Shown in pieces: positions 20,510 through 34,697 of a stretch of 64,000 nt of DNA; the first letter of the stretch is position 1, and every line of letters begins with the position of its first letter. The DNA comes from Halomonas sp. Bachu 37 (GTDB lineage Bacteria > Pseudomonadota > Gammaproteobacteria > Pseudomonadales > Halomonadaceae): assembly GCF_039691755.1 (NCBI RefSeq), contig NZ_CP137552.1, positions 1,984,001-2,048,000 on the forward strand, given 5' to 3'. The notes under the pieces were generated by a model that did not search any database, had not been told where the DNA came from, and saw only the letters and a list, made by a program, of their open reading frames with translations. The position numbers were made by a program, and so were the translations under genes.

Positions 20510-20698
20510 TTATTCAACTTCCTCTGTACTGCTTCTTTCGCGCTGAATTCGCTGATAGATTTCTTCACGATGCACGGCGACATCTTTGGGCGCATTGACA
20601 CCGATCCGCACCTGGTTGCCTTTCACGCCCAGCACGGTGACGGTTATCTCATCACCTATCATAAGGGTTTCGCCGACACGGCGGGTTAGGATGAGCAT
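20510..20698 (-). CDS. csrA: carbon storage regulator CsrA (RsmA)
   Basis: CsrA is a homodimeric RNA-binding protein that binds GGA motifs near ribosome binding sites to control translation and stability. The ATG at 20698 is preceded by AAGGAGA at good spacing and gives 62 residues. The RNA-contact residues Leu4 and Arg44 (VAVHREEIY) are present. A 22-residue upstream extension is rejected. It lies between lysC and tRNA-Ser, as in pseudomonads. Its probable sRNA antagonist is at about 30,383-30,570 in this same window. Confidence 0.97.
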
Positions 20699-29959: not shown

Positions 29960-30283
29960 ATGACATTTGTCGTTACCGAGAACTGCATCCAATGCAAATA
30001 CACCGACTGTGTCGAGGTCTGTCCGGTCGATTGTTTCTACGAAGGCCCCAATTTCCTGGTCATTCATCCCGATGAGTGCATCGATTGCGCCCTGTGCGAG
30101 CCGGAATGCCCGGCGGAGGCGATATTCTCGGAAGATGAACTACCGGAGGGGCAGGAAAGCTTTATCGAGATCAACGCCGAACTCTCTGAAGTCTGGCCCA
30201 ATATCACCGAAAAGAAAGATCCCTTGCCTGATGCAGAAGAGTGGGATGGCAAGACAGGCAAACTGGAAAAGCTCGAGCGCTAA
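29960..30283 (+). CDS. fdxA: seven-iron ferredoxin FdxA
   Basis: FdxA is a small electron carrier with one [3Fe-4S] and one [4Fe-4S] cluster. The 107-residue product has two cysteine motifs: C-x2-C-x4-C-x3-CP ([15 protein letters not shown], residues about 9-20) and C-x2-C-x2-C-x3-CP ([12 protein letters not shown]). The C-terminal region ends in [23 protein letters not shown], as in Azotobacter-type FdI. It follows mutS. Downstream on the opposite strand is a predicted RsmZ-like sRNA, an arrangement known for Pseudomonas rsmZ. Confidence 0.96.
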
Positions 30284-30382: not shown

Positions 30383-30407
30383 AAAAAAAGGCGGCCCGTA
30401 GGCCGCC
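30383..30407 (-). terminator. Rho-independent terminator of the RsmZ-like sRNA
   Basis: On the minus strand GGCGGCC-TACG-GGCCGCC is a perfect seven-base GC stem with a four-base loop, followed by seven T residues. No T-run follows on the plus strand, so it serves a minus-strand transcript, not fdxA. Confidence 0.9.
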
Positions 30408-30570
30408 CGCTCCAAGCGTTTCCTCCAACAATTCCCTCTGTTGCAACTCCTGTAGTGCCGTCCCTGCCAGGGCCAACGTCCTGTTTCACCCAGCGCACCG
30501 TCCTGCATCCCGTTGCATCCTGCGTGAGACTTCCTTGCCTCCCCTGTCCTTGTTGAGCAGTGTGGCAGGT
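30383..30570 (-). ncRNA. predicted CsrA/RsmA-sequestering sRNA of the RsmZ/CsrB class
   Basis: Read on the minus strand, about 185 bases between fdxA and eno contain 13 GGA triplets, many as CAGGA(U/C)G, AAGGA or AGGGA, the binding motif of CsrA/RsmA. The stretch ends in a strong GC hairpin followed by seven T residues. A TTGTCA (30600-30595) and an A/T-rich TTAAACTAAC (30581-30572) could be the promoter, so the 5' end near 30566-30570 is approximate. A perfect TGTAAG-N6-CTTACA GacA-type site is about 150 bases upstream. The position, convergent with fdxA, is that of rsmZ in Pseudomonas. No convincing protein-coding frame is present. It likely antagonises the CsrA encoded at 20,510-20,698. 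Confidence 0.8.
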
Positions 30571-30603
30571 TGTTAGTTTAACTCAAGGCGGCCCTGACAA
30601 CGA

Positions 30604-30630
30604 AAGAGCGAGCCACGCAGGCTCGCTCTT
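30604..30630. terminator. perfect 11-bp hairpin between the GacA-type site and the sRNA
   Basis: aagagcgagcc and ggctcgctctt form an 11-base stem with a five-base loop. On the minus strand it is followed by TCGTTG, so it could be a weak terminator for read-through from eno, insulating the sRNA promoter. It may instead be the 5' end of a longer sRNA if a promoter at TATAAA (about 30,643) is used. Confidence 0.45.
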
Positions 30631-30713: not shown

Positions 30714-30731
30714 TGTAAGAAAACTCTTACA
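30714..30731. promoter_or_regulatory. perfect GacA (UvrY) upstream activating sequence
   Basis: TGTAAG-AAAACT-CTTACA is an exact match to the palindromic TGTAAG-N6-CTTACA site bound by the response regulator GacA ahead of rsmY and rsmZ. It lies about 150 bases before the predicted start of the sRNA at 30,570, similar to the roughly 180-base spacing known in Pseudomonas. A further CTTACA half-site is at 30748-30753. Confidence 0.8.
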
Positions 30732-30756
30732 ACTATTGAAGAAATAGCTTACACCA

Positions 30757-30798: not shown

Positions 30799-34697
<3,899 letters not shown>

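Follow-up and report, generated by a model that had tools for sequence, protein, structure and literature searches.

A predicted CsrA-sequestering small RNA between fdxA and eno, the probable Halomonadaceae counterpart of RsmZ

The gap between fdxA and eno in the 64-kb stretch of DNA that we analysed as a whole (hereafter the window) holds, very probably, the gene for a small RNA that titrates CsrA after being switched on by a two-component system. Judged from its sequence, the minus strand from 30553 to 30383 is highly likely to specify a GacA-activated, CsrA-sequestering non-coding RNA, the counterpart in the Halomonadaceae of RsmZ. An RNA titrating CsrA/RsmA had been proposed for this gap in the original prediction, and this reading gains support from conserved unpaired GGA triplets, from covariation, from a GacA-type box at an rsmZ-like distance, and from a genome that encodes CsrA, GacA and a GacS-like kinase. 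The features of the locus, with the identities of mutS, fdxA and eno confirmed by profile search, are:

20510..20698, minus strand: csrA (92.8 bits), the only copy found in the genome
26970..29813, plus strand: mutS, profile-confirmed; the start codon is that of the ORF list and may lie downstream
29960..30283, plus strand: fdxA (NF045490, 181 bits), convergent with the sRNA
30383..30553, minus strand: predicted CsrA-sequestering sRNA (RsmZ-like) of about 171 nt, called from GGA density, conservation, covariation and matches to the covariance model R1
30389..30408, minus strand: intrinsic terminator stem-loop of 8 pairs, with a T run (30389-30383) after it
30559..30564, minus strand: predicted -10 element CACACT, from sequence; often CACAAT after TG in the relatives compared
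30581..30586, minus strand: predicted -35 element TTGAGT, from sequence, 16 bp from the -10 element
30600..30630, minus strand: hairpin between box and promoter, recognized by eye and found in aligned relatives as well
30714..30731, minus strand: exact GacA-type box TGTAAGAGTTTTCTTACA, centred about 170 bp ahead of the predicted start
30736..30753, minus strand: second, imperfect box with 2 mismatches, adjoining the first
30799..32118, minus strand: eno (TIGR01060, 662 bits), the upstream neighbour of the sRNA

The GGA-rich character ascribed to the minus strand of the fdxA-eno gap was borne out: 13 GGA triplets occur in 208 nt (30590-30383), all of them within one 185-nt segment. The original prediction required the GGA density to exceed that of shuffled sequence, and the 13 triplets stand against a mean of 6.8 +/- 1.8 in dinucleotide-preserving shuffles (p about 0.001; like the other p values of this test, uncorrected for the place having been picked by an earlier reader). 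Seven of the triplets are part of AGGA, where 1.5 are expected from such shuffles (p 0.0003), and four of CAGGA; on either strand of the 64 kb, this stretch is the top 185-nt segment both for GGA and for AGGA. ANGGA was not significantly enriched (4 found, p 0.07), and up to 6 occur elsewhere in the 64 kb. At the 3' end, the GC hairpin followed by seven T residues was found as described, with GGGCGGCCTACGGGCCGCCT at 30408-30389 and the T run at 30389-30383. The extent first proposed (30383..30600) is amended at its 5' end: the RNA probably starts near 30553, a position derived from the predicted promoter, and the hairpin at 30630-30600 lies upstream. That hairpin is possibly the terminator of eno; a terminator scan called none at 30600-30630. 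A match to MIR156 (E 0.0005, 29.7 bits against a gathering threshold of 62) coincides with the hairpin upstream of the sRNA and was dismissed as a plain palindrome.

The exact GacA-type box, which the original prediction had overlooked, is the strongest evidence for the sRNA reading. The sequence at 30714-30731 fits the pattern TGTAAGN6CTTACA exactly, and we read it as a putative GacA box; in P. fluorescens SS101, according to the accessible part of PMC4353343, rsmY is preceded by TGTAAGCATTCTCTTACA and rsmZ by TGTAAGCATTCGCTTACT. Exact boxes number 5 in the window's own genome, compared with 0 for a reversed control pattern, and 142 compared with 8 in 41 genus genomes, 3 of which are without any exact box. 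All of the 30 best-scoring same-genus loci, that of the window's own genome included, carry an exact box, a figure that is an upper estimate for the genus because these loci are the best matches; four same-genus genomes (G150, G160, G162 and G166) have a match to the RNA model and no exact box nearby. The distance from the box to the predicted start is 169.5 bp in the window, and in 29 relatives it amounts to 176-181 bp (24 loci), 156-160 bp (4 loci) or 167.5 bp (1 locus); the steps between these classes correspond roughly to one and two turns of the helix and may reflect a constraint on the side of the DNA that the box faces. The palindrome about 180 bp before the start that marks GacA-controlled Rsm RNAs is accordingly present in the window and 29 relatives; it is imperfect or absent in some members of the Halomonadaceae. 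For three Pseudomonas rsmZ genes with starts defined by Rfam, the corresponding distances are 178.5, 181.5 and 183.5 bp, with 2, 1 and 0 mismatches in the box.

None of 20 loci from other genera, hand-picked from blast matches, has an exact box. In sixteen of them a box with no more than two mismatches stands at 177-195 bp, and the box of L139 has three mismatches. L147 carries an insertion, so that its box, also with three mismatches, is 313 bp away, and at two (L145, L146) no box was found at the locus. The box reads TGTAGG...CCTACA in L128, L132 and L134, both halves being altered alike, whereas elsewhere only one half is altered. Cobetia amphilecti (L085), L145 and L146 resemble one another in that the GGA-rich stretch before the conserved 3' part is expanded, and their best box at the usual distance has 5 mismatches. 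Vreelandella jeotgali (L045:2898-3085) has kept the locus, with several GGA triplets replaced by a GTGAAAG-type repeat and 1 mismatch in the box. Between box and RNA, TGCCACAAT stands directly upstream of the RNA in many relatives, and TTGAGT-16-CACACT is the version in the window; a scan with a generic consensus called no promoter before the sRNA, neither a -10 nor a -35 element.

Sequence conservation was followed in two alignments. The first (A1) holds 28 same-genus RNAs, namely that of the window and 27 of the 29 relatives measured for box distance, and has a mean column identity of 86%. Eight GGA triplets are invariant in all 28 of these RNAs. A further GGA at RNA nucleotide 73, scored as kept in 25 of 28, was not counted as conserved, since a gap artefact is involved and GTGA stands in the remaining rows. 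From A1 we derived a consensus structure of 37 pairs, in which 98.4% of the cells are paired, compared with 35-48% in slid versions. Two-sided changes affect 12 of the 37 pairs and 42 cells, against 12.3 cells in shuffles, and none of 500 shuffles reaches 42. All bases but one of the eight invariant GGAs are unpaired in this structure, and the RNA thereby presents multiple GGA motifs in loops or single strands, as CsrA/RsmA-sequestering RNAs do. Taken as a single sequence, the fold is not unusually stable (z -0.92). The second alignment (A2) extends over several genera and comprises 29 sequences, 17 of them RNAs from other genera, at 72% identity; 6 GGA triplets are invariant in it, and conservation is higher for the GGA triplets of the window than for the remaining triplets of the window (0.72 versus 0.41, p 0.002).

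A covariance model, R1, was built from A2; its E-values are rough. At E <= 0.01, R1 matched in 171 of 201 family genomes and in 21 of 24 genera, some of these matches being weak (E 0.001 to 0.01) and possibly false; 30 of the 201 genomes gave no match. A blast search with a 241-base query from the window hit 138 of the 201 genomes, partly through the terminator only, and is not a count of the RNA. In 19 of the 20 hand-picked other-genus loci the RNA lies between eno and fdxA, and the twentieth locus ends at a contig end. R1 found nothing at the sRNA site in two Salinicola loci (L054, L058) and in Modicisalibacter ilicicola (L093). The window's own genome has a single R1 copy, the next best match having an E-value of 1.8. 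As for a second Rsm RNA in this genome, the sequence after the four other exact boxes contains at most 7 GGA per 170 nt, compared with 13 here, and that downstream of near boxes at most 6 per 150 nt.

Larsenimonas suaedae (L057:2991-3711) has four tandem R1 matches between eno and fdxA, which are perhaps one long multi-repeat sponge. This arrangement resembles the multi-copy RsmZ of Azotobacter vinelandii (RsmZ1-7, according to the accessible part of PMC7366521), from which the single copy of the window's genome differs. G146 is the one same-genus genome without an R1 match and also lacks an exact GacA box; its GacA scores 257 bits, compared with 286-299 bits in the nine other same-genus genomes compared, and a decay of the Gac-Rsm system is possible in this strain.

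The check by Rfam models for RsmZ, RsmY and CsrB, which the original prediction had put forward, was negative: there is no match in the window at the gathering thresholds and none around the feature up to E 10, so that membership of an Rfam family as modelled is not supported. The RsmZ model (RF00166) also gave no match in nine Halomonadaceae fdxA loci, six of them R1-positive, and it matched three of three Pseudomonas-labelled loci at the fdxA-convergent site with 72-138 bits. When 20 related loci were scanned with all of Rfam (E <= 10), RsmZ, RsmY and CsrB again gave no match, and the only hit to the Rsm/Csr clan was a sub-threshold one to CsrC in L143 (28.8 bits against a gathering threshold of 61, E 5.9e-5), with one lower-scoring overlapping clan match omitted in reporting. 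The enterobacterial CsrB and CsrC RNAs (RF00018, RF00084) have CAGGAUG-type repeats, as the sRNA does; they are longer, carry more sites and occupy other genomic places.

The position of the locus, in contrast, corresponds to that of rsmZ, as had been stated from the outset: the order is mutS-fdxA-RNA with the RNA convergent with fdxA, and eno stands in place of rpoS as the other neighbour. In P. fluorescens SS101, mutS and fdxA flank rsmZ (figure legend in PMC4353343). With RsmZ/PrrB of Pseudomonas (RF00166) the sRNA shares the mutS-fdxA neighbours, the convergent orientation, the GacA palindrome about 180 bp upstream, the repeated GGA in loops and the terminator hairpin. It differs in its length (about 171 nt versus 133 nt in P. 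fluorescens SS101, as given in the accessible part of PMC4353343), in its 13 GGA triplets versus 8, in having eno instead of rpoS beside it, and in being missed by the Rfam model. By position and regulation, the sRNA is a probable RsmZ orthologue that falls outside the present Rfam model, and we consider it likely that it and Pseudomonas rsmZ descend from a common ancestor.

The alternative that retains most weight, although we think it unlikely, is that a CsrA sponge of independent origin came to lie beside fdxA by chance; its function would be the same, and only its descent would separate it from an RsmZ orthologue. The silence of the Rfam RsmZ model and the presence of eno rather than rpoS on the right-hand side fit such an origin, as does the precedent of RsmV and RsmW in P. 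aeruginosa, which are called probably independent in the accessible part of PMC7366521. The mutS-fdxA flank in common with rsmZ and the similar distance of the GacA box speak against it, and so do the R1 matches beyond the family. R1 was run over 85 sources, 80 of them fdxA loci, and yielded 11 matches with E < 0.2 outside the Halomonadaceae; nine of these fall at the fdxA-convergent site, most of them weak (E 0.0003 to 0.14), and two (L061, L107) lie away from it. Under random placement, 9 of 11 at this site has a probability of about 1e-11, for a threshold and a site width that were chosen after the matches had been seen. The nine comprise 6 of 22 Pseudomonas-labelled loci with a match, mostly a weak one, at the rsmZ site (L064 with 20.7 bits and E 3.2e-4; L068, L075, L051, L083 and L047 with E 0.02-0.14), two Marinomonas loci (L105, L106) and a locus from a metagenome-assembled genome labelled Pedobacter (L112). 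Generic GGA repeats and the terminator may carry part of this signal outside the Halomonadaceae. Common descent with rsmZ, the reading that we prefer, suggests that an rsmZ beside fdxA predates the split between Pseudomonas and the Halomonadaceae.

GGA-rich stretches convergent with fdxA are found in three Marinomonas loci (L105, L106 and L109). The last of these has an exact GacA box and no R1 match, while the other two, with R1 matches, have imperfect boxes. RNAs of the Rsm type linked to fdxA may, to judge from such sequences, exist beyond Pseudomonas and the Halomonadaceae.

Much less probable is the view that the stretch is nothing but the 3' untranslated region of the eno mRNA, rich in GGA and closed by a terminator, and that it acts in cis or is inert. 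The stretch does follow eno immediately and shares its strand, the eno transcript may include the GacA box, and in Halomonas sp. M20 (L055) the RNA is found near eno, with about 1.2 kb of other sequence between it and fdxA. However, a hairpin separates eno from the RNA in the relatives compared, an element of the TGCCACAAT type has been conserved immediately ahead of the RNA, and the box spacing agrees with that of rsmZ, a gene that does not adjoin eno. A processed eno 3' untranslated region that sequesters CsrA is a possible variant.

The claim that this stretch holds no convincing protein frame was upheld, in that no reading frame is conserved across the aligned relatives. Minus-strand ORFs of 61-72 aa overlap the sRNA stretch and extend beyond the terminator; yet the spacing between CAGGATG and the terminator stem takes all three values modulo 3 across the aligned rows, and every frame is interrupted by a stop in 21 to 26 of the 28-29 rows. 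Because lengths vary out of frame and stops interrupt most rows, the stretch is not coding. That the stretch is a small ORF or an sRNA of the base-pairing (Hfq) type with incidental GGAs, to which the high overall conservation within the genus and the overlapping ORFs might point, is hardly credible in view of this variation, of the stops, and of GGA triplets being better kept than others (permutation p 0.0002 and 0.002 in two tests).

The partners that a CsrA-sequestering RNA of the RsmZ type would need are encoded in the same genome. As had been noted, csrA lies about 10 kb from the sRNA on the minus strand (20510-20698). GacA is represented by a protein that scores 298.7 bits with NF007018 (UvrY/SirA/GacA; cut-off 280) and whose gene lies beside uvrC. 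A GacS-like protein of 924 residues has the domain order HAMP-HisKA-HATPase-receiver-Hpt; it reaches 634 bits with the BarA model, below the cut-off of 890, the profile search for GacS did not find the sCache_4 sensor domain (PF09984), and its gene adjoins cysM and rlmD, both identified by reading their sequences. The genome thus combines CsrA, GacA and a GacS-like protein, the set that defines a Gac-Rsm system. Among 20 tested family genomes without an R1 match, 18 have a GacA match (E <= 1e-50) and only 3 pass the cut-off, compared with 20 matches and 18 past the cut-off in 21 genomes with the RNA, a contrast confounded by kinship. The loss of gacA was rejected as a simple explanation for the loss of the RNA, since 18 of the 20 RNA-less genomes keep a GacA match; gacA and the sRNA do not strictly travel together.

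These genes and the sequence elements, with their conservation, covariation and spacing, are observed directly; from them we infer transcription, the start site, the binding of GacA and of CsrA, and the effect on targets. The most likely course of events, as suggested by the sequence, is that of a Gac-Rsm switch. Phosphorylated GacA would bind the palindrome at 30714-30731 and activate the predicted promoter at 30586-30559, and transcription would stop at the hairpin at 30408-30389. The resulting RNA of about 171 nt would display most of its GGA motifs in loops or single strands and bind several CsrA dimers, so that CsrA would leave its target mRNAs and these targets would be released.

For halophilic bacteria of the Halomonas group, the sRNA would supply the middle link that their Gac-Rsm switch has lacked. 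For Halomonas anticariensis, the accessible part of a 2020 review (PMC7366521) lists in a table GacS-GacA, CsrA in brackets and a mimic sRNA given as "Unknown", and reports GacS/GacA in connection with quorum sensing, exopolysaccharide and biofilm; regulation of quorum sensing by GacS/GacA in this species is also stated in the accessible part of a paper on the Halomonadaceae (PMC4187203). For H. hydrothermalis, CsrA binding has been modelled in a 2026 preprint, the available text of which names sponge sRNAs as future work (PMC12889724). The locus described here offers a candidate for the RNA listed as unknown in H. anticariensis, complete with sequence, promoter box, structure and family-wide distribution; R1 finds the RNA where Rfam does not, and the whole Gac-Rsm circuit becomes testable in halophiles that are used in biotechnology. 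An earlier description of the fdxA-eno RNA was not found in the literature searched, mostly papers open without subscription and present in part, or in the accessible parts of PMC13414033, PMC5568370, PMC2375449 and PMC6471967; an earlier prediction, for instance in the 2006 paper on the prediction of CsrA-regulating sRNAs (Kulkarni and others), is possible.

GacA-type boxes also stand before other genes, above all in the hcp-tssB gap. All 17 hcp loci found across the 41 genus genomes (L193-L209) have a box within the 600 bp that precede hcp; 16 of these boxes are exact and one has a single mismatch. The reversed pattern, with up to one mismatch allowed, was present at 0 of 17. No hcp match was obtained in the window's own genome. 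Among 20 further boxes, hand-picked in five genomes, six precede genes of the type VI secretion system (T6SS; L173, L175, L176, L178, L179 and L180) and two lie inside a long ORF. Four of these boxes (L173, L176, L179 and L180) are upstream of vgrG-like genes; Pfam confirmed VgrG-type domains only at L173 and L176. From the shared palindrome we infer GacA as the putative binder of these boxes, and a direct control of the T6SS by GacA appears possible. We tentatively suggest, at slightly less than even confidence, that the gene for the RsmZ-like RNA is one member of a direct GacA regulon that includes other genes, hcp-tssB foremost. If true, a single signal would reach secretion by two routes, one direct, at the promoter, and one indirect, via the mRNAs freed from CsrA. 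In the literature searched, as judged by titles and the beginnings of abstracts, no report of direct control of hcp by GacA was found.

The four other exact boxes of the window's own genome precede genes for a lipoprotein-like protein, a DUF4214/RTX-repeat protein, a dCache chemotaxis receptor and a protein without a Pfam match; L001:1501, L004:1501 and L005:1501 are the boxes before the DUF4214/RTX-repeat, no-Pfam and dCache receptor genes. The lipoprotein-like protein likewise gave no Pfam match for the copy at L002. An exact box upstream of such a lipoprotein-like gene occurs both in the window's own genome (L002:1501-1518) and in that of another species of the genus, G194 (L186:1493-1510).
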